NCBI GenBank assembly: GCA_903847095.1
Contig: CAINCQ010000024.1
Span: forward strand, 80,628-126,617
Source: an uncultured bacterium
Lineage (GTDB): Bacteria; Patescibacteriota; Minisyncoccia; Minisyncoccales; UBA5738
Direction: 5' to 3'
DNA length: 45,990 nucleotides
Every line of letters starts with the position of its first letter. Within the stretch, counting starts at the first letter, position 1. The notes under the pieces were generated by a model. That model was not told the DNA's origin. It ran no database searches and worked only from the letters and a program-made list of their open reading frames with translations. Below are positions 9,574 to 29,333 of the stretch, one piece after another. Made by a program: the position numbers and the translations under genes.

Positions 9574-9726
9574 TATCTATCTCCTCTAGTATCTTACTAT
9601 TGTCCATTTTTCGGCGTTATTGGCCGAAAGCCAAGTTTTGGCGCGCGGTTTTCCAGCATAAAACTGAAAGACCCGGCGCCAAAACCCGGCAGATATCATT
9701 CAATTGTCAAAAGAACTTTCCTCTGA

Positions 9727-9758
9727 TTCAGGCCAAGATCTTGCGATCATGGGCTGAA
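9727..9758. repeat. Hairpin element copy 1 (GATC-N4-GATC core)
   Basis: TTCAGGCCAAGATCTTGCGATCATGGGCTGAA; same architecture as 10283-10314. Confidence 0.6.
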
Positions 9759-9862
9759 TAAAGGAGGAGAATCGGTTGACTTAAATACCTGATAAAATTA
9801 TTTTTTTCTAACTCCTTGCTGCCTACCGGCAGCTGTATAGAAATCCGCTTAACCGGCGGTTC

Positions 9863-9908
9863 GGGTGGTCGCGCAGACGGCCAGCCAAATCGCCAGTCAA
9901 GATTTTCT
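9863..9908. repeat. 46-bp intergenic repeat copy A
   Basis: GGGTGGTCGCGCAGACGGCCAGCCAAATCGCCAGTCAAGATTTTCT; one mismatch to copy B. Confidence 0.9.
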
Positions 9909-10215
9909 CATTTAAATTATTAAAATTCTTTGTATTGCTCGTTATTTAACATTTAATAACTATTAGCACATTCGCGCGAATGTGCGAATGGGTTAGATCG
10001 TTGTTTTTAGATGATTCCTTTTTTTTAATCTGCCGGCGCCAAGTCGCGAACCAGTTTTTGAATATCAAACAAAGAATCAGCGTTTAGAGGAGAGAGATTT
10101 ATATCCCTTTTCCGTAAACACGGAATTTGGAAAATTTCTCACGCAGTTTCCCGATCTGAAGTTCATCGGACTGGTTGGCGGCTTGGCGCCGGCCAAGCAT
10201 CTTAACTGGTAATCA

Positions 10216-10261
10216 GGGTGGCCGCGCAGACGGCCAGCCAAATCGCCAGTCAAGATTTTCT
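10216..10261. repeat. 46-bp intergenic repeat copy B
   Basis: GGGTGGCCGCGCAGACGGCCAGCCAAATCGCCAGTCAAGATTTTCT; one mismatch to copy A. Confidence 0.9.
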
Positions 10262-10282
10262 AAAATTGTTAAAGCTTTCTGC

Positions 10283-10314
10283 TTCAGGCTACGATCAAGT
10301 GATCATGGCCTCAA
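10283..10314. repeat. Hairpin element copy 2 (GATC-N4-GATC core)
   Basis: TTCAGGCTACGATCAAGTGATCATGGCCTCAA. Confidence 0.6.
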
Positions 10315-10384
10315 GTGAAAGGAAGAGTTTGGTTGCGGTATCTTCCATTTTTTTACCGCGAGAGGAGGTGACTCTCTGAACGAT

Positions 10385-10822
10385 TCAAGCGTTGGCAAGG
10401 GCTTGAATTAGTGGACCATTGGCCCACAAGGCGTGGCTCGTGCTTGTTTTGTAGTTTCTTATTCCCGGAGCTAGTAGAACTTTTTCCGGAAGCCCCATTT
10501 TTTTAAGATTCGTGTAGGCTCCTGGGTTTCTTCTGTCCATTTCATCGGCCACTCTGACCGCTTCATCAATGGAGAGCTCACGCAATTCTATGTCGGAAGT
10601 GGAAAGTAAAACGTTTCCTTTCCAAGCCACGAGGTGGCAATACGTGATACTTGTGTCGCTACCCCTTCCGCAAACGTTGTTCCATAAATTCAACATCCGA
10701 AGCTGTCCCTTAGCTTCTTCTCTGTATAGAAGGTGATTAGACTCTCTTTCTGAAAGGATTCCAAAATACCATCTCTTATCCATTCCATTAAGCTTTTTGG
10801 CTAATGCCGAATTATCTTTCAT
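10385..10822 (-). CDS. Hypothetical protein
   Basis: 145 aa ORF with CGGAGGATTGAAAT RBS upstream of ATG on minus strand. Confidence 0.6.
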   Translation of the reverse strand: MKDNSALAKKLNGMDKRWYFGILSERESNHLLYREEAKGQLRMLNLWNNVCGRGSDTSITYCHLVAWKGNVLLSTSDIELRELSIDEAVRVADEMDRRNPGAYTNLKKMGLPEKVLLAPGIRNYKTSTSHALWANGPLIQALANA

Positions 10823-10875
10823 ATTTCAATCCTCCGTTGAATTTTGATCTTTTTGCGCCAATATGTCTTGAGCGG

Positions 10876-10928
10876 CGGTTTGGGGGAGTCCTTCGATAAT
10901 TTATTATTAAGGACTGCCTCCCAAACCG
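10876..10928. repeat. Long inverted repeat/hairpin
   Basis: CGGTTTGGGGGAGTCCTT ... AAGGACTGCCTCCCAAACCG, about 17 paired bases. Confidence 0.8.
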
Positions 10929-11007
10929 ACGCCCAAATTTTTTGAAGAACCGTTTACTTATAGGCTCACTTAATCATTTAACTCCCAACTCATTAACTAT
11001 TTTTCAT

Positions 11008-11169
11008 CTTGGGAGGATGATGGGGATGAGTGCGGGTAGGGTATTGGACAATTATGGATAAATTTTCCTCACCGTTCCCAAGAAACATTTTGGCGAAACC
11101 GGGTTTGGGATAGCCCCGAAGTCCAGTTTCAGGTTTCTTTTACTCTCTCCTCTCCATCATTCTCCCAGG
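11008..11169. repeat. Nested long-range inverted repeat (putative structured RNA)
   Basis: CTTGGGAGGATGATGG at the 5' end versus CCATCATTCTCCCAGG at the 3' end; inner complementarity AAGAAAC/GTTTCTT. Confidence 0.55.
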
Positions 11170-11189
11170 CTGATCGGCTTATTTCCTTC

Positions 11190-11247
11190 ACGAATAAAGG
11201 CGGTCGAGACTGTTCTTCCATAGAAGAGATTTCTCGACCGCCTTCGT
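11190..11247. repeat. Hairpin with 13-bp perfect stem
   Basis: AAGGCGGTCGAGA ... TCTCGACCGCCTT plus flanking ACGA/TCGT with a 3-nt bulge. Confidence 0.8.
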
Positions 11248-11363
11248 AAAAAATACGCGTTTTTGGCGATCTGTTCCTTAAACTTTAATGGTCCAAGGGG
11301 TACTCTCTCCTCTAAAGAAAGTAATGGAATTTATTGGGTACTTATGTTTACTCTTACGCCTAT

Positions 11364-15496: not shown

Positions 15497-15561
15497 CGGA
15501 TACGCTTTTTTGTTGCTTTATTGCTATTGACAAAATATATAACTTATGATATTGTATAGGC

Positions 15562-15851
15562 TATAGGAAGCTTGGAACGATACACGACGGAAGGGACGAC
15601 ATTGCCAAGAGATTACCCCCGACTTGGATAGATCCCTTCAAAAAAGACTATACTTAAGGTGCGTTCCCGGTCAAATCCGAGCAATAAGACCGGGAGAACT
15701 CGCTAAACGGCATAATTCGGGAGACATAAGTCCCGAGTCCCTGTCCAGGGTTTGACGCCGCTTAGGAGCAGATTTATCCGCCTACAACACCTTATGCTCT
15801 CTCCAAGCTTCCTGTAATCCCTTTTACTTTGGCCCCGCGCAAGCGGGTTTT
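15562..15851 (+). ncRNA. Candidate structured non-coding RNA 1 (unidentified family)
   Basis: Promoter TTGACA(15527)-17-TATTGT; closing stem GGAAGCTTGG(15566)/CCAAGCTTCC(15803); inner stems TAAGGTG/CACCTTA, CCCGGTC/GACCGGG, TCGGGA/TCCCGA, GAAGGGA/TCCCTTC; terminator CCCGCgcaaGCGGGTTTT; no ORF in the track. Confidence 0.65.
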
Positions 15852-15967
15852 AAGTTACTGAAGAATAATATCCGCAAAACGATAGAATAGTTTTTGGAAT
15901 ATCATTAAAGCCCGTATTTTGTTTAATGGTGTTTGACCTTGACGGTTTGGCGGGTTAAATTAAAGCA

Positions 15968-17009: not shown

Positions 17010-17109
17010 CGCTGGCGGAGATCAAATTTTCACGGATTTTCCGGGTAGGCTTTTTTGGCAGCGAAGGTGTTATTTGACATTTATGTAATTCAATGATATA
17101 AAATATAAC

Positions 17110-17346
17110 ATGAGCGATAGTTTTAGGCTTGATCGGGAGACAAGGTTTGCGGTTGGAAATGAGGTTGTTCTCCATCCGGACCTTGATTGCGAAGATCACT
17201 CCGAATTTAAAGACCATGAGGGCTTGGAGCCGGGGAAAAAGTATCGGGTAATCGAAGCAGAGGATGTGGACGGTTACCAGCAAATTACCATAAATAACGG
17301 AATGACGAATGTTGTATTAATAAGCGGGTGGTTTGTTCTTGCTTAA
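17110..17346 (+). CDS. Small hypothetical protein
   Basis: 78 aa ORF downstream of a TTGACA-like promoter; terminator-like hairpin downstream. Confidence 0.5.
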   Translation: MSDSFRLDRETRFAVGNEVVLHPDLDCEDHSEFKDHEGLEPGKKYRVIEAEDVDGYQQITINNGMTNVVLISGWFVLA

Positions 17347-17481
17347 GATTAGGTTTGGGCCGCTGCGATTTTGTCAGCGGTTTTCTTTTTGATTTAAATC
17401 GCAAATGGCGTAAACTTTTTGCCCCGGATCTTTCGGGTTATGGGGCTTGACAAAAGTTTAATGGTATGATATAATTAAAAC

Positions 17482-17591
17482 ATGAAAGTTGGAGGATGCT
17501 CTTTTCGAGGCTAGTTGTTAGCCAATGATCTAGACTACTCCGCCTCCAGCTTTCAAAACCCTTAACTTTTGACCCCGCGCAAGCGGGTTTT
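17482..17591 (+). ncRNA. Candidate structured non-coding RNA 2 sharing promoter and terminator style with RNA 1
   Basis: TTGACA(17447)-17-TATAAT(17470); closing stem GAAAGTTGGAGG(17484)/CCTCCAGCTTTC(17543); inner GGCTAgttgtTAGCC; terminator CCCGCgcaaGCGGGTTTT. Confidence 0.65.
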
Positions 17592-17731
17592 AAGTTACCA
17601 AAACCTTACCTTATCCGCCCGAATGGGCGAATGGTCGGGTGGTCAAAAATTTATCAAAGGAAAACCTTGACTTTTAGCGGGAGCGGGTTAGGGTAAGGGG
17701 AGTAATTTTAAAATGGATTGGAGGTTGAAAT

Positions 17732-18142
17732 TTGACTAGGTTGAACAAAAGACCGATCCGGGAAAAAGAAGCAGTGGCGAGGCAGGTCATAAATTGTCCG
17801 CTTGGGCATTCCGACGATTATTTTTGTCATCTGCGATGTCCGATGAGGAGCCAGGATCAGTGTGTTTATAAGATCATGGAGACGCCCATTCTTTGCGAAA
17901 AAGTCATGGATGATGAAACCGGAGAAGGGGGTTATGTTTGGAGTTTTGCCTGCGTGCATTGCGGGCACGATGTGGTGTTCCTTACGCCCGACGAGACTTT
18001 GGTTGGAAGCCAGGGGTTTTGTTTGGCTTGCAAGGCAAGGTACCTTTACCAGCATCCCGTGATGGCGTACAGAACCTTTACTGTCTGTTTGATGGTTTCG
18101 AGGCCTTATTGCAAGGTGGTCAGAAAGAAGGGGAAAAAATGA
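17732..18142 (+). CDS. Cys-rich putative zinc-binding protein, paralog 1
   Basis: NCPLGHSDDYFCHLRCPMRSQDQCVYKI ... WSFACVHCGHD ... GSQGFCLACKARY; RBS TGGAGG with TTG start. Confidence 0.65.
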   Translation: MTRLNKRPIREKEAVARQVINCPLGHSDDYFCHLRCPMRSQDQCVYKIMETPILCEKVMDDETGEGGYVWSFACVHCGHDVVFLTPDETLVGSQGFCLACKARYLYQHPVMAYRTFTVCLMVSRPYCKVVRKKGKK

Positions 18143-18403: not shown

Positions 18404-18847
18404 GTGGTGAGGCTGTACGTAAGAAAGATTGAGGAACAGAGAAAACCGGTGGTCCAGGTCACGAATTGTCCGCTTGAACTTACCGACGAGTATTTCTGCA
18501 AGTTCCGGTGTCCGATGAGGGGAATTTACCACTGTGTTTATAGGATCGTCGAGATCTTTCCCAGGCGAGAAGAACTTAGGGACGTGAAATGCGGGCAAAT
18601 CATTTTCGCCTGGCGTTTCAGATGCTGCCATTGCGACAAGCTGGCCGCCATTTATACGATAACCAGCGATCTGGTCGGAAGCCAGGGATCCTGCGCGGCG
18701 TGCGGAGCCAAATATGTTTATTTCCGGCATTACCGCTGCGAAAGCAGCCAGGGCGGTCCCGTAGCTTATTACGGCGTGTCAAAGCCGATGATCGTGATTA
18801 AGAAGGTCAGTAAGAAAAGGCGGTCAAAAGCCGAGTCGGGAGATTGA
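18404..18847 (+). CDS. Cys-rich putative zinc-binding protein, paralog 2
   Basis: NCPLELTDEYFCKFRCPMRGIYHCVYRI ... WRFRCCHCDK ... GSQGSCAACGAKY; GGAGG then GTG start. Confidence 0.7.
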   Translation: MVRLYVRKIEEQRKPVVQVTNCPLELTDEYFCKFRCPMRGIYHCVYRIVEIFPRREELRDVKCGQIIFAWRFRCCHCDKLAAIYTITSDLVGSQGSCAACGAKYVYFRHYRCESSQGGPVAYYGVSKPMIVIKKVSKKRRSKAESGD

Positions 18848-18936: not shown

Positions 18937-19488
18937 ATGGCGGAAGTGCGAAGAGCGAGAGACGCGGACGTGCGGGGTATTTTGAATCTGGTGAAAAGAG
19001 TTCACGTCAAAAATCTGGCCAGGCTTGAGGATGGTTTTCTCATGATACCAAATGCGTCGCCGGTTCTTTACCAATTTTGGTTTAACGTTTCGCCGTACTG
19101 TTACGCGGCGGTTAGCGGTTCAAAGGTGATCGGAATCCTAGTCGCTTTGCCCGGGCATGTTTTGGACCAAAGGAACGAATTCTACCTACATATCCGGGAA
19201 GCGTTTGCCGGCGAAAAGATCTTATTCGTAGTACAAGTGGCGGTTAGCCCGGATTTTCGCGGCCAGGGAGTGGGCCGAGCGATGTGTGGAAGGCTTTTTG
19301 AAGAGGCCGGAGACGCGATTATTCTCTCAAGCAGCATGACGGCTCCTTATTATAACGGAGCGTCCGAGCGGTTCCACCTGGCGGTGGGATTCCAAAAAAT
19401 GGGAGAAATGGAGGCAAGCGACAAATCGAGATGCTATCTATATCTGCGGAAGAATGATCAAGAAAAAGGATGCAGGAGGAGACAATGA
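18937..19488 (+). CDS. GNAT-family N-acetyltransferase
   Basis: VVQVAVSPDFRGQGVGRAMCGRLFEEA is motif A of GNAT; ATG at 18937 after GGAGGTGAAT. Confidence 0.85.
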   Translation: MAEVRRARDADVRGILNLVKRVHVKNLARLEDGFLMIPNASPVLYQFWFNVSPYCYAAVSGSKVIGILVALPGHVLDQRNEFYLHIREAFAGEKILFVVQVAVSPDFRGQGVGRAMCGRLFEEAGDAIILSSSMTAPYYNGASERFHLAVGFQKMGEMEASDKSRCYLYLRKNDQEKGCRRRQ

Positions 19489-19991
19489 AGGAATTGCAAA
19501 AGCATGGGATTAAAACCGAAAAACAGACGGTCAAGCGGGTAATGAATTGTCCATTTGCCTGGGGTTTGGAAAATCGCTGGGGTCGCAAAATTGTTGATGA
19601 GAAAACCTGCGGTGGTTGTGAGTTTCATGACTGGCGGGAAGGCTGTGTCTATGGCCTAGCTGATTTACCAACGGTTCGAACGGCGATTTTTGATGAAGAA
19701 AGCAAGACGTCCTGGTTTGTTTGGCGGTTTAATTGTTACCACTGCCGGCAACCCGTTTCGATAACGTCTTTCTACCAGAATATGTCCAGCGGTTACTATG
19801 GACGTTGCCATAAATGCGGGGCATTCCATTACTATATAAAATGGAGTTACGCGACTTGTCCGGAAAAAGAAAAGTGGTGGTATGCCGTTGGCGAACCCGA
19901 TCCCGAAAGCATCGGGCACGTGAAAGACGGAGACGAAAAACGGGAATACCAGGCGAGGATACCAAACAGACTGGAAAAAAAGCTTGAATAG
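19485..19991 (+). CDS. Cys-rich putative zinc-binding protein, paralog 3
   Basis: MNCPFAWGLENRWGRKIVDEKTCGGCEFHDWREGCVYGLADLPTVR ... WRFNCYHCRQPV ... GRCHKCGAFHYY; overlaps the GNAT stop. Confidence 0.7.
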   Translation: MKELQKHGIKTEKQTVKRVMNCPFAWGLENRWGRKIVDEKTCGGCEFHDWREGCVYGLADLPTVRTAIFDEESKTSWFVWRFNCYHCRQPVSITSFYQNMSSGYYGRCHKCGAFHYYIKWSYATCPEKEKWWYAVGEPDPESIGHVKDGDEKREYQARIPNRLEKKLE

Positions 19992-20006: not shown

Positions 20007-20501
20007 ATGGCGAGATTAAAAAATCATAAGATAACGGCGGTCAGAGAGACGATCCAGCGGATAAAGAACTGTCCGCTGGCGCCATACGTGGATGGGCGTC
20101 TCGGCCATTCTTTGGTCGACGAGATAAGCTGCCGGTCCTGCGTTTGCCATGATTGGCAAAAAGGATGCGTTTACGCGGAAGCGTTAATTCCGACCATAAG
20201 GGAAACGGTTTGGGATGAGAAGAGCAGAGCAGCTTACTTCTTCTGGCGTTTCAACTGCCATCATTGCGGGCATCCGGTCGCGATAGCATCAACCTATGAA
20301 ATGATTTCGGTTGGTGATGTCGGCCGGTGTATGGGATGCGGAGCGTATCACCATTATATTATGGACGACGAGTCGGAGACGGACAGGATATTATTCGTAG
20401 TGTCCAAAAAAACCGACCAAGATCTTATTGAAGCCGTTAAGAATTCGAACGGCGAACGTCTTTATGATTCTTACATAACGGAATTCACGGGGAAGAGTTA
20501 A
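20007..20501 (+). CDS. Cys-rich putative zinc-binding protein, paralog 4
   Basis: KNCPLAPYVDGRLGHSLVDEISCRSCVCHDWQKGCVYAEALIPTIR ... WRFNCHHCGHPV ... GRCMGCGAYHHY. Confidence 0.7.
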   Translation: MARLKNHKITAVRETIQRIKNCPLAPYVDGRLGHSLVDEISCRSCVCHDWQKGCVYAEALIPTIRETVWDEKSRAAYFFWRFNCHHCGHPVAIASTYEMISVGDVGRCMGCGAYHHYIMDDESETDRILFVVSKKTDQDLIEAVKNSNGERLYDSYITEFTGKS

Positions 20502-23117: not shown

Positions 23118-26100
23118 ATGAATAAAAATCTGGAAAAACTTCCGGCGGCTTTAAGGTTTGGGGGCGTTATTTTATTATTAGTTTCAAGTTTTTTCATAAT
23201 TGATCCGCTAAACAAGGCTATCGGTTTGGGTAATAATCTGGTGAACGCCAGTTGTACCAATGGATGCTTGACTGCCGGATGGCAATGTAATTCATCGCAG
23301 GCCCGCCATCAGTGCGGCGATTTTAACGGGGATGGCTGTCTGGAGTGGGCAGATACCATTTACAGCTGCGCGACGGGCCAGACTTGCACGGATGGAATGT
23401 GCTCGGGCGGCGGCAGTTGTGTCTGCTTGGCTTGGGTGAACGGGGATTGTTGCAATGGCACCGATTGTACCAAGGGATACAGGAAACAAACCCGGACTTG
23501 CACGCCCACGCAATGTAGTTTTGAAGGCCGGATCATAAACGATGCCACCTGCACCGGCGGAAGCGGAACTTGCACCCAAGATTCCGAATGCAAAATGGAT
23601 AATGCCACTTGTTCCTGCAGCAGCGGGAAATGTTTGTGCTGTCCGACCGTCAATGGTGTGACCGGCAAGGTTTGTTCTTACAACACGGAGCAGTGTTATT
23701 ATGAAGCGAACATGCAGCTTTGCGGCGCGAGCGGCGTTTATTGCGGATCGAATACCTCTTACCCGCATTATAAATGTGAAGCGGAAACCGGTTCGGTTTT
23801 GAAAACATTGTTGAAAACATTGGAGCCTAACGGTTCGGTTTGCAGTTATACCAGCAAGAGTTGTTGCACGGGCGCGATCTGCAACCCGCTGGGGTCTTGC
23901 GATGGTCATGCCGCCCCTCCGGTCATTTCCAACGTTAAACCGCAAAGCACTTTCAAGGTTTCTTCGGATGCCGATATTACCATTTCGGCCGATACCAACA
24001 TCGATTCGATTTGTAAATTCAGCGGGATCGATCAGGATTACGATTCGATGCCGAACACCTTTTTGAATACCGGAAAAAAATTCCATTCCCAAAGCCTGGG
24101 AAAAACGACGGTCGGGGAACATACTTTATATGTCCGCTGCAAGGGGGTTAATTGCGTTAAAAATACCGTTTCGGCGGTCATCAAATTCACGGTAATCGAT
24201 GCCGGCGGCGATAAACTTGCCCCCAAAATAACCAATCCTTTGCCGACCGGCGACGTTGATTGGGAAAACGTAACGCTTTCCGTGGAAACGGATGAAGCCG
24301 CGACTTGTTATATCGACCGGAAAGACAATACCGCATACGCCGATATGGAAACCTTGATGGGGACGACGGATGGACGGAATCATTCTGCTTCCATCGATCT
24401 TACCGGATACGCCGATGCGACATATACTTATTACGTGAAGTGCAAAGATCTGGCCGGGAATACCAACGATGACTCGAATCAAGGGAAAATAATATTCACT
24501 TATACCGGCGGATCAAACAATGGTTCGGACACCACTCCTCCGGTCATTTCCAATCTGCTACCCAAAGACACGATTACGGATAATACTCCTAAGATATCGG
24601 CTGATACCGACGAAAATGCCACTTGCCGGTTCAGCTTCGCCGACAAGGATTATGACCAAATGACCGATACCTTTACGATGACCGGCGGCAAGGTTCACGA
24701 ATATACTTTTGCCTCCTCTCTTAGCGACGGAGCTTATACGATTTATGTCCGATGCAAGGATGATAATGGAAACAAGAACACAAAATCGGAAAAGATCGTG
24801 TTTACGATCGATACTTCCACCACCTGTACCACGGATAGCAATTGTGCAACCGGTCAAACATGTACCGGCGGAAAATGTGTGACCAGCACGACCTGTACCA
24901 GCGACTCCGGTTGCGCAACCGGACAAACTTGTACCGGAGGAAAGTGTGTAACCAGCACCACCTGCACTTCAGACAGTGGTTGCGCAACCGGTCAAACTTG
25001 CACAAGCGGAAAATGCGTGACCAGTACCGGTTGTACCACGGATAGCAATTGTGCAACCGGCCAAACGTGTACCAGTGGAAAATGCGTGACCAGCACCACC
25101 TGCACCTCAGACAGTGGTTGTGCAACCGGTCAAACTTGCACAAGCGGAAAATGCGTGACCAGTACCGGTTGTACCACGGATAGCAATTGTTCAACTGGCC
25201 AAACGTGTACCAGTGGAAAGTGTGTAACCAGCACCACCTGCACCTCAGACAGTGGTTGCGCCTCTGGCAAGACTTGTACCAACGGAAAATGTGTGACCAG
25301 TACGACCTGCACCAGTGACTCCGGTTGCGCAACCGGCCAAACGTGCACCGGCGGAAAGTGTGTGAATGACACCACTCCTCCGGTCATTTCCAATCCTAAA
25401 CCAACCGGTACGTTAACCAGCGGTTCCGGGGTTACTCTTTCGGTGGCCACGGACGAAAACGCTACTTGTAAGTACGACACCACGGACAAGGATTTTGATT
25501 CAATGGCGAATACCTTTGGAGGCGCTGGTACCAAATCACATTCCAAGGCACTTTCCGGTACCCTAAGCGATGGCGCTAAAATTTACTATGTCCGTTGTAA
25601 AGATACGGCTGGAAACAAGAATACCGCATCGACCAAGATAGAGTTTACCGTAGATACAACGACTGACGACACCACTACCGATGATACAACCACGGACGAT
25701 ACGACGACAGACGATACCACCACAGACGATACCACCACGGATGATACCACCACGGATGATACCACCACGGATGATACCACTGGCGATGATACAACGGTTG
25801 ACGGCCTTACGGTCACGCTGGTAAAACCGACCAGCGCCATAACCGTAGCGGAAACCGATTTTGTTGTTTCAACCAATCATAACGCCGTTTGCAAACTCTC
25901 CGATACGGATCAAGCTTATGCTTCCATGCCTTGGACCTTTACCACAACCGGCGGCAAGACTCATTCTGTACATTTGATCAATTTTGATCCCGGGGCCAGT
26001 AAAGTTTATGTTCGTTGTAAGGATACGGAGACCAATACGGTGATGTCAAAATCAGCGGTTTTCACGGTAACTTACAATAATAGCGGCGGAGGTGGTGATA

Positions 26101-29100
26101 ACACGATCGATGGTTTGACGATGACGTTAGTCGGACCGACCAAAGCCATAACCGTAGCGGAAACCGACTTCGTTATTTCAACCAGCCATAACGCCGTTTG
26201 CAAACTCTCCGATACGGATCAAGCTTACGCTTCCATGCCTTGGACTTTTACCACGACCGGCGGCAAGACCCATTCCGTCCATTTGATCAATTTTGATCCC
26301 GGGGCCAGTAAAGTTTATGTTCGTTGCCGGGATTTGGAAACCGGTATCGTGAGTTCTAAGTCGGCGGTTTTTACCATTACTTACAATTCAAATGGCGATG
26401 ATACAACGACTGACGACACCACTACCGATGATACAACCACGGACGATACGACGACCGACGATACAACCACGGACGACACCACCACGGATGATACCACTGG
26501 CGATGATGACATAACGGACGACGATTCGGCTACTGGCGATGACGATACAACGACGGATGATACCGCCACCGACGATACAACTACGGATGATACGACGACC
26601 GACGATACAACTACCGATACTACTCCGCCTGTCATCAGCGGCGCTTTGCCGACTGGTACGGTAAACGCTTCACCGGTCACGGTTTCGGTGAAAACCGACG
26701 AAAAAGCGACCTGTAAGCTGGATGTAATTGATAAGGATTACGATTCGCTGAAAATGACTCTTAAGGCCGATTCGGAAAAGAAAAGCCATTCGATCAAGGT
26801 TATGGCTTTGTCAGGCGGGGATTACAAGGTATATGTTCGTTGTCAGGACGTTGCCGGTAACAAAAACACCAAAGCAACGGTAATTTCTTTTAAGGTAACG
26901 CTAGGCGGGACGGATAAAACACCGCCCGAAATATCAAATCCTTTGCCTAAAGACACGATAAGTTCTATTGATGTCCAAATATCCGTTGAAACGGCAAAAG
27001 AGAACGCGACTTGCAAGTTCGATACCCAGGATACGGATTACGATTCGATGGCTTCTGATTTTGACCAGACCGGAGGCACGATTCATAAATCCCAATTTAT
27101 GGCTTTGGGAGACGGTAATTACACCGTATATGTCCGGTGCAAAGACGTTGCCGGAAACGTAAATACATCTTCGGCCAAGATCGTTTTCAAGATCGATACC
27201 ACGGGTTCATTCAATAACAGCGGCAAAGACACCGGCGGAGATGACGTCGCGGGCGAAATCATGACCATCAAGGGTGATTATGTCTGGCAGAATGACGATG
27301 CCGGAAAACTGGGATCTTTTCCTTGGGTGAATTGGTTTGCCGGATACGAGTTTGTTCCTCAAAAGGATGGCGCCATAACGGAACTTTGCGGTTTCTTCGA
27401 TAACAAAGCGTTGATGGTCAATCTTTACGACGATTCTTTCCGCCTATTGGCCGCGGCAAAAGTCAATAGCGGGAACAATTGGAATTGCGCTCCGATTTCC
27501 CCGGTAACCGTTGCGAAAGGGAAAAATTATTTCGTAGCCGTCAACGCGTCCCAGTCTTCGATACATTACAAATACCAATGTTGCAATCCATCCTTGCTTC
27601 CCAGAACGATCAAGGACGTCAAGGTGGTGGCGGGCGTGCGCCAGGCCAATAAAAATGCTTTTGGAACAGGTATCAAGAGATACGCTTATTTGTTGTTCGG
27701 ATTGGTTGATGCCAAATTTAGCACGGGATCAGTCTTGGCTCCCGCCGCTTCCGACACAACACCTCCGGTAATTACCGATCCCTTGCCTTCAGGCACCATT
27801 TCAAACAATAAGCCGACCATTTCGGTGAAAACCGACGAAAACGCGACTTGCCGGTTCGAGCATTCGGGCGTGAGCTATTCGAACATGAAGCACGTGTTCA
27901 GCCAAACAGGCGGTCTTACCCATACCAAAGTGATTGGTCCGAAAAAAGACGGGACGTATGTTCGCTATGTCCGGTGCAAGGATGCCGCCGGGAATAAAAA
28001 CACCAAGTCCGTTAAGATTACATTCACGATCAAGAACGGTAGCGTGACCGATACGACGCCTCCCGTGATAACGAACGCCAAACCGACCGGCACCATTAGC
28101 GATAACAAACCGACACTCTCGGTTACGACTGACGAAGACGCGACCTGTAAATATTGCGAGACCGATTCTTCGTATACGTCTTTATGCAAGTCTTTTTCCA
28201 CTACCGGAACAAAAACCCACTCGGTTGCCGTTGGGCCGCTGAACGATGAAAGCTATACTTATTACGTTAGATGTAAAGATAAGGCGGGGAATGTTAATAC
28301 CGCCTCGACCAAGATCCAATTCACCGTGGAGGCCGGAAGCAACGATACCACGCCTCCCGCAATATCGGAGGTGAAAGTAAGTCCGGCATCCGGCAAGATT
28401 GGCGATACGTTCACTATTACCGCTAAAGCAACCGATAGCAGCGGCATCAGTTCTGTTCAGGCCCAGCTTCAAATTCCCGACGGAACTACGGTTGCGACCG
28501 TAACTTTGAAAGATGATGGCGCAAGCGGCGACGGAAGCGCTAATGACGGAGTTTACGGAGCGACGTGGCTGTCCACAGGAATGACGGCAGGCACGTATTA
28601 CGTCGATATCGTCGCCAAGGACAAGTATAACAACAGCGCAACCGATAATAACGGGGCTACTTTTACCATTACCGGAAGCTCGGTGAACGGCGATTGCAAA
28701 ACCCTTACCAACAACGGGTCCGCGGCGGACAAAGTCGATGTGACGTTCGTGCCTTGCGGCTACGGCAGCGACCTGGCGACTTTTGAAAGCGACGCTAAAA
28801 AGCATATTGCCAAATTCTCGTACACCAACGACGTTTCCAAGTTCAATTTCCATATCGTAACGAAAACCGGGATTACCTGCGGGACGAATACCTGTACGAA
28901 TTTGGATTCTTACGGTTCTAAATTTAGACAGTACGCTTCGGTTTGTGATACCGATCAAGTGATAGGATTGATGAAGTCGGCCCAGGACGGGGGTTGCTCG
29001 GGTATGGGTTCCGGGTTGAGTTTCGTGAACCAATCCACGTCCCCGTATGTTTCTGTCCATGAAACGGGACATGCGTTTTTCAGCATCGATGACGAATATG

Positions 29101-29333
29101 TCTATCAGCAATATCGGCCCATAAGCAATCCTTCGTACAATTGCGATAACAATTCGTCTTGTCCGACTTGGAGCGGGCTTTCCGGGGCGCAATGCATAAA
29201 GGGCTGTACTAATTCAAGCGCCTATCGATCGGCGCAAAACGGTATAATGAACAATCCGGATCAAGGAACGAACGTAGGTTTTTCGCCGGCCTGCGCAAAA
29301 CGTATTTCGAGCGTATTAAGCAAGTACAAATAA
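23118..29333 (+). CDS. Giant secreted multidomain protein: Cys-rich repeats, Ig-like repeats, Thr/Asp linkers, DUF4082-like domain, C-terminal M64-like metallopeptidase
   Basis: Signal/TM N-term; 8 copies of T(T/G)CT(S/T)DS(G/N)C(A/S)(T/S)G(Q/K)TCT(G/S/N)GKCV; many TTPPVISNP.PTG...YVRCKD.AGN.NT repeats; C-term HETGHAFFSIDDEYVYQ. Confidence 0.85.
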   Translation: MNKNLEKLPAALRFGGVILLLVSSFFIIDPLNKAIGLGNNLVNASCTNGCLTAGWQCNSSQARHQCGDFNGDGCLEWADTIYSCATGQTCTDGMCSGGGSCVCLAWVNGDCCNGTDCTKGYRKQTRTCTPTQCSFEGRIINDATCTGGSGTCTQDSECKMDNATCSCSSGKCLCCPTVNGVTGKVCSYNTEQCYYEANMQLCGASGVYCGSNTSYPHYKCEAETGSVLKTLLKTLEPNGSVCSYTSKSCCTGAICNPLGSCDGHAAPPVISNVKPQSTFKVSSDADITISADTNIDSICKFSGIDQDYDSMPNTFLNTGKKFHSQSLGKTTVGEHTLYVRCKGVNCVKNTVSAVIKFTVIDAGGDKLAPKITNPLPTGDVDWENVTLSVETDEAATCYIDRKDNTAYADMETLMGTTDGRNHSASIDLTGYADATYTYYVKCKDLAGNTNDDSNQGKIIFTYTGGSNNGSDTTPPVISNLLPKDTITDNTPKISADTDENATCRFSFADKDYDQMTDTFTMTGGKVHEYTFASSLSDGAYTIYVRCKDDNGNKNTKSEKIVFTIDTSTTCTTDSNCATGQTCTGGKCVTSTTCTSDSGCATGQTCTGGKCVTSTTCTSDSGCATGQTCTSGKCVTSTGCTTDSNCATGQTCTSGKCVTSTTCTSDSGCATGQTCTSGKCVTSTGCTTDSNCSTGQTCTSGKCVTSTTCTSDSGCASGKTCTNGKCVTSTTCTSDSGCATGQTCTGGKCVNDTTPPVISNPKPTGTLTSGSGVTLSVATDENATCKYDTTDKDFDSMANTFGGAGTKSHSKALSGTLSDGAKIYYVRCKDTAGNKNTASTKIEFTVDTTTDDTTTDDTTTDDTTTDDTTTDDTTTDDTTTDDTTTDDTTGDDTTVDGLTVTLVKPTSAITVAETDFVVSTNHNAVCKLSDTDQAYASMPWTFTTTGGKTHSVHLINFDPGASKVYVRCKDTETNTVMSKSAVFTVTYNNSGGGGDNTIDGLTMTLVGPTKAITVAETDFVISTSHNAVCKLSDTDQAYASMPWTFTTTGGKTHSVHLINFDPGASKVYVRCRDLETGIVSSKSAVFTITYNSNGDDTTTDDTTTDDTTTDDTTTDDTTTDDTTTDDTTGDDDITDDDSATGDDDTTTDDTATDDTTTDDTTTDDTTTDTTPPVISGALPTGTVNASPVTVSVKTDEKATCKLDVIDKDYDSLKMTLKADSEKKSHSIKVMALSGGDYKVYVRCQDVAGNKNTKATVISFKVTLGGTDKTPPEISNPLPKDTISSIDVQISVETAKENATCKFDTQDTDYDSMASDFDQTGGTIHKSQFMALGDGNYTVYVRCKDVAGNVNTSSAKIVFKIDTTGSFNNSGKDTGGDDVAGEIMTIKGDYVWQNDDAGKLGSFPWVNWFAGYEFVPQKDGAITELCGFFDNKALMVNLYDDSFRLLAAAKVNSGNNWNCAPISPVTVAKGKNYFVAVNASQSSIHYKYQCCNPSLLPRTIKDVKVVAGVRQANKNAFGTGIKRYAYLLFGLVDAKFSTGSVLAPAASDTTPPVITDPLPSGTISNNKPTISVKTDENATCRFEHSGVSYSNMKHVFSQTGGLTHTKVIGPKKDGTYVRYVRCKDAAGNKNTKSVKITFTIKNGSVTDTTPPVITNAKPTGTISDNKPTLSVTTDEDATCKYCETDSSYTSLCKSFSTTGTKTHSVAVGPLNDESYTYYVRCKDKAGNVNTASTKIQFTVEAGSNDTTPPAISEVKVSPASGKIGDTFTITAKATDSSGISSVQAQLQIPDGTTVATVTLKDDGASGDGSANDGVYGATWLSTGMTAGTYYVDIVAKDKYNNSATDNNGATFTITGSSVNGDCKTLTNNGSAADKVDVTFVPCGYGSDLATFESDAKKHIAKFSYTNDVSKFNFHIVTKTGITCGTNTCTNLDSYGSKFRQYASVCDTDQVIGLMKSAQDGGCSGMGSGLSFVNQSTSPYVSVHETGHAFFSIDDEYVYQQYRPISNPSYNCDNNSSCPTWSGLSGAQCIKGCTNSSAYRSAQNGIMNNPDQGTNVGFSPACAKRISSVLSKYK
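24819..25370 (+). repeat. Eight tandem 69-bp coding repeats (23-aa, four-Cys unit)
   Basis: Read directly: units TTCTTDSNCATGQTCTGGKCVTS etc., ending at ...GGKCVND. Confidence 0.9.
25653..25800 (+). repeat. 15-bp tandem coding repeat encoding (DDTTT)n
   Basis: DTTTDDTTTDDTTT... translation. Confidence 0.9.
26396..26620 (+). repeat. Second 15-bp (DDTTT)n coding repeat, degenerate in the middle
   Basis: DDTTTDDTTT...TGDDDITDDDSATGDDDTTTDDTATDDTTT. Confidence 0.9.

Follow-up and report, generated by a model that had tools for sequence, protein, structure and literature searches.

In Enterobacterales, the small RNAs OmrA and OmrB are encoded by neighbouring intergenic genes with near-identical ends and divergent middles, an arrangement attributed to an ancestral duplication (PMC12692685). 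In the C-rich small RNAs of Firmicutes (IsrR, FsrA, RsaE type), unpaired C-rich stretches pair with Shine-Dalgarno sequences (PMC9410917). Here we describe two putative small RNA loci, RNA 1 and RNA 2, in a 45,990-nucleotide stretch of DNA (the window) from an uncultured bacterium of the Patescibacteriota. The window is part of contig C24; the genome (G000) measures 1.35 Mb and is 96% complete. The closest parallel is OmrA/OmrB, as here too two neighbouring predicted small RNA genes have a common end. In contrast to that pair, however, it is the 3' end that is common, while the 5' ends are unrelated and the bodies differ in both size and fold (about 250 versus about 75 nt), and there is no sign of a common 5' seed or of Hfq for RNA 1 and RNA 2. 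The closest functional parallel for RNA 2 is the C-rich Firmicutes group, with which it has in common an unpaired C-rich stretch beside stems and an intrinsic terminator; it differs from them in that its C-run is short (CCC in G000 and CCCCCC in the sister species G001) and in that there is no sequence relation. RNA 2 is a member of neither family.

The most plausible reading of RNA 2 is a small-RNA gene that stands alone, is restricted to its genus, and belongs to a family not in Rfam. The gene is about 120 nt long, with a putative start near 17481 and an end near 17590-17598; its parts are given in Table 1 together with those of RNA 1 and of the adjacent protein gene. The original prediction was that the region 17447-17600 encodes a small RNA, equipped with a promoter and a terminator, in which a 12-bp stem surrounds an interior of about 47 nt. 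Sequence and fold both confirmed the stem (P1, GAAAGUUGGAGG/CCUCCAGCUUUC, 12 bp with one G-U, closing a 47-nt interior), and the assignment as a gene is supported by the anatomy of the sequence and by its conservation in a second species. Within the interior, the 5' side of the loop is mostly unpaired in the G001 fold and partly unpaired in the G000 fold, and its last letters (UCG) are able to pair with 17526-17528. A short linker, AAAACCCUU, joins P1 to the terminator, in which CCCGC-GCAA-GCGGG-UUUU is nested in an AACUU/AAGUU helix; the nested fold was found in all three copies of this segment, two in G000 and one in G001.

Table 1. Features of the RNA 1 and RNA 2 loci (positions in the window)
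Feature	Position	Strand	Support
RNA 1 promoter, TTGACA-N17-TATTGT	15527..15555	+	10/12 consensus
RNA 1 body, predicted multibranched, 15-bp closing helix	15562..15815	+	fold
RNA 1 copy of the 3' segment (RNA 1 end)	15816..15858	+	43 nt, 86% identity to 17556-17598
78-aa protein gene with its own promoter and terminator, kept neighbour of RNA 2	17110..17346	+	71% identical in G001
RNA 2 promoter, sigma-70-type, TTGACA-N17-TATAAT, TG before the -10	17447..17475	+	12/12 consensus; kept in the G001 ortholog
P1 closing helix, 5' strand, GAAAGUUGGAGG	17484..17495	+	fold; pairing maintained in G001
Internal loop, 5' side, AUGCUCUUUUCG	17496..17507	+	11/12 letters identical in G001
P2 apical hairpin, GGCUA-GUUGU-UAGCC	17509..17523	+	folds in both species; 6 bp in G001
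Internal loop, 3' side, AAUGAUCUAGACUACUCCG	17524..17542	+	ACUACUCCG invariant between G000 and G001
P1 closing helix, 3' strand, CCUCCAGCUUUC	17543..17554	+	fold
RNA 2 copy of the 3' segment, unpaired linker AAACCCUU plus intrinsic terminator	17556..17598	+	86% identity to 15816-15858

Comparison with G001, the sole other species of the genus compared, revealed an RNA 2 ortholog at the syntenic place (BLAST E 1.7e-28), flanked by the 78-aa gene and a capsule-synthesis-like gene. The 78-aa gene and RNA 2 together make up one aligned block (17070-17602) that is kept, whereas the 2.5 kb preceding this block and the 2.9 kb following it have been replaced. Measured over this one divergence, identity is 46% in the intergenic sequence before the promoter and 35% after the terminator versus 92% and 80% on the 5' and 3' sides of the core loop, and the terminator matches exactly over its final 25 nt. 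Flanks that can be aligned only poorly thus surround a unit in which the promoter, the terminator, both helices, and the greater part of the unpaired core are kept. Because the core is retained nearly letter for letter in a close relative, RNA 2 is probably functional.

The predicted structure was examined in the same two species. Each of the 18 pairs in the model is a standard one in G000 and in G001, compared with 17-55% in slid controls, and the helix differences are all compatible with pairing: in P1, one U-G pair of G000 is C-G in G001 and one A-U pair is gone from both strands, and P2 has one extra pair in G001. Strict two-sided covariation is zero between the two sequences, and since there are only two, the structure is supported by pair maintenance and folding energy rather than by covariation. 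RNA 2 with its terminator folds at -42.0 kcal/mol (z -5.1, with 0 of 200 shuffles as good), and its body alone gives a z of -3.9; across the two-species test, z was -5.1 and -6.0 with all pairs kept. For the RNA 1 region (15562-15860), the minimum free energy is -99.5 kcal/mol (z -4.1). Stems of the P1 type, defined as having 12 bp, no more than one G-U, and arms close to each other, number 16 on the + strand of the window, compared with 0-3 in Markov sequences of equal length.

Our leading reading, to which we give modest preference, is that RNA 2, at about 120 nt, is a small-RNA gene in its own right whose product most likely acts in trans. An aptamer-like fold ahead of a terminator and the short ATG frames within RNA 2 would also be expected of a leader, a riboswitch, a piece of a 3' UTR, or a small-peptide gene. 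However, P1 and the terminator do not overlap, hence there is no antiterminator, and the genes downstream of RNA 2 differ between G000 and G001. Nor is any reading frame conserved, as indels shift the frames between the two species, and RNA 2 is not the 3' UTR of the upstream 78-aa gene because that gene ends at its own terminator near 17358-17390. Together, the separate promoter and terminator, the lack of a conserved frame, the position of P1 clear of the terminator, and the differing downstream genes argue for a stand-alone gene, and we regard a leader, UTR, or peptide origin as highly improbable. Even more improbable, in our estimate, is a divergent housekeeping RNA (SRP or 6S) that the models missed. 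Neither SRP RNA (RF00169) nor 6S RNA (RF00013) was found in the 96%-complete genome, and the outline of RNA 2, a large bubble closed by a stem, is reminiscent of 6S. But even at E up to 10 neither the SRP nor the 6S model matched the RNA 2 locus, the helix-8 motif of SRP RNA was not seen in it, a 6S RNA would need a much longer apical stem, and the locus has no relative in the sister genus or the order.

The origin of the common 3' end bears on whether RNA 1 and RNA 2 belong together. It had been proposed that the two loci reuse one promoter architecture and one near-identical terminator segment as a cassette carrying different RNA bodies. The near-identity of the 3' segments was borne out (86% over 43 nt, 26 nt of them exact, at loci 1.7 kb apart), as was the specificity of the terminator for the two RNA loci: when the whole 1.35 Mb genome was searched for the hairpin plus tail with up to 3 mismatches, exactly 2 sites were obtained (control, 0), none of them after a protein gene. 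G001 has a single copy of the hairpin, which terminates the RNA 2 ortholog, and the sister genus has it in 0 of 3 genomes. The promoter, on the other hand, did not hold up as a common part, being an ordinary sigma-70 promoter whose TTGAC-N-ATGATA form is also found at 17074 before the 78-aa protein gene. Of the cassette idea there remains a truly common 3' segment, while the promoter likeness is generic and duplication suffices. Since the genome holds no more than two copies and G001 one, and since BLAST did not find the body of RNA 1 in G001 or any other of 58 relatives, duplication of a single 3' end accounts for the sharing, and we favour it over a mobile cassette; a modular cassette would be a less favoured alternative.

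We lean slightly toward the view that RNA 1 and RNA 2 are unrelated units with no functional link, and that duplication or gene conversion carried the terminator across the 1.7 kb between them. This view is consistent with the unrelated bodies, the generic promoter likeness, and the detection in G001 of RNA 2 and not of RNA 1. Against it, the common part reaches past the hairpin (CCCTT..ACTTT), and different sequences are seen at about 30 further hairpin-plus-T sites of the window and of the contig from G001. In addition, the RNA 1 segment is about equally like the G001 copy (90% over 41 nt) and the RNA 2 copy (97% over 31 nt), which suggests that the copy is old or under selection and speaks against a recent event. 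Pairing between RNA 1 and RNA 2 is no better than between shuffled sequences (116 of 200 as good). The view of unlinked units concerns the RNA 1-RNA 2 link and is compatible with a real stand-alone RNA 2 gene. A far more ambitious proposal, which we consider a long shot, would place both RNAs in a lineage-specific class of Patescibacteria small RNAs, with the 3' module (C-rich linker plus nested terminator) as a common binding site for an RNA chaperone; RNA 2 would then make up a two-gene RNP module together with the SH3-like 78-aa protein.

What the sequences show for RNA 2 is its anatomy, its retention as an island, the upkeep of its base pairs, and a 3' segment confined to the two RNA loci; its expression, its mode of action, and its partner we infer. 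The sigma-70 promoter would drive synthesis of an RNA of about 120 nt, stopped by the intrinsic terminator, in which P1, the asymmetric near-invariant internal loop, P2, the unpaired C-rich linker, and the terminator hairpin would follow one another. P1 would hold open the conserved loop (AUGCU.UUUU / ACUACUCCG) for recognition of a partner in trans. If the partner is an mRNA, ACUACUCC and the CCCUU linker could pair with the purine-rich, Shine-Dalgarno-like sequence to which they are complementary, and ACUACUCCG and the CCC linker would be exposed toward purine-rich ribosome-binding sites. A search of the 46 kb window and of the 55 kb G001 contig for complements of the loop yielded none that is conserved; one extra loop-complement match at 26619 of the window is without a counterpart in G001. 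Provided that the RNA is real, base-pairing with mRNA falls, in our judgment, a little short of an even prospect, and a protein-binding or otherwise structured site is a somewhat weaker candidate. Judged from sequence, pairing with mRNA is thus weighted slightly above binding of a protein.

The specific proposal that the internal loop is a protein site, either kink-turn-like or another RNP element, perhaps bound by the 78-aa SH3-like protein, appears unlikely to us, although several observations fit it. A folded site is suited because both sides of the loop are conserved, and the 78-aa gene and RNA 2 are kept as a block while both flanks are replaced. The neighbouring protein is predicted to form a small SH3-like barrel (AlphaFold mean pLDDT 87), with matches in the PDB to Tudor, L21e, and FeoA folds that are weak (best E 0.04) and count against the proposal; adjacency by itself makes this predicted SH3-like protein a candidate partner of RNA 2. 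With respect to the kink-turn, as defined in PMC5061560, the element GA-GGCUA..UAGCC-AAU-GA is invariant in both species and fits the sequence rule C-NNN-GA/GA. RNA 2 thereby resembles kink-turn RNAs such as U4 snRNA, the SAM-I riboswitch, and box C/D RNAs in having a C helix, an AAU bulge, and GA opposite GA; the three-nucleotide bulge and the G-A and A-G pairs beside the C helix are present at the level of the sequence rule only. It differs from them in that neither inspection nor the folds show, for either species, a paired NC helix beyond the G-A pairs, in that a competing Watson-Crick pairing (UCG/UGA) is predicted in both, and in the lack of an L7Ae homolog. The L7Ae family (PF01248) was not found in G000, whereas it was found in 7 of 14 control genomes. 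Moreover, the rule, which was looked for post hoc, is expected by chance about 3.6 times per 46 kb strand, or in about 0.6% of 74-nt RNAs. A kink-turn RNP was rejected, the sequence rule being satisfied without an NC helix or an L7Ae-family gene.

Searches for relatives were made with a covariance model built from the G000 and G001 sequences, both of which score at 1e-24 or below by construction. Among 247 genomes of the order, nothing comparable was obtained beyond these two, and in 387 class and 382 phylum genomes nothing was convincing. The filters of these broad searches lose weak matches, so that a strongly diverged relative may have escaped them. Weak matches (21-28 bits) do not carry the invariant core, and with this many genomes chance is expected to produce them; the strongest, in genome G754 (27.9 bits), resembles RNA 2 in outline but differs in its core and is not directly followed by a terminator. 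Nor was there a match in plasmids, phages, or viral contigs. Rfam gave none at the gathering threshold for either the G000 or the G001 locus, and at E up to 10 the matches were at chance level only. SRP RNA (RF00169) was matched in most control genomes and not in G000. TIGR arrays of Tas systems are tandem dual-spacer repeat arrays (PMC12045711), and a TIGR array was rejected, there being no tandem repeat at the RNA 2 locus. Our searches of open-access literature for Patescibacteria together with small or structured non-coding RNA yielded no description of a small RNA of this kind. A compact, conserved small RNA with its own promoter in a reduced genome would offer a handle on RNA-based regulation, and on its chaperone, in Patescibacteria.

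Several other elements were observed in the neighbourhood. Downstream of RNA 2, four Cys-rich small proteins (17732-18142, 18404-18847, 19470-19991, and 20007-20501) look mutually related and, by eye, zinc-ribbon-like; these proteins have no confident Pfam match, and the stretch that encodes them is absent from the syntenic place in G001. At the G001 locus (L004), the palindrome TGTTGAGGTCAAACCTCAACA is present in three intergenic copies, near 1433-1453, 2031-2052, and 2918-2940, and one copy of it lies just past the RNA 2 ortholog. Tandem repeats of 69 nt and 15 nt at 24700-26700 of the window lie inside the gene for a 2071-aa Ig-like-domain protein (23118-29333). Genes are sparse in the region 9700-11300 of the window, where more non-coding elements with structure and conservation are located. 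A 61-nt sequence is directly repeated at 9848 and 10201 (89%), a segment at 10263-10330 has two copies in G001 at 87-90%, and an inverted repeat of 17 bp at 10868-10936 shows 90% conservation in G001.
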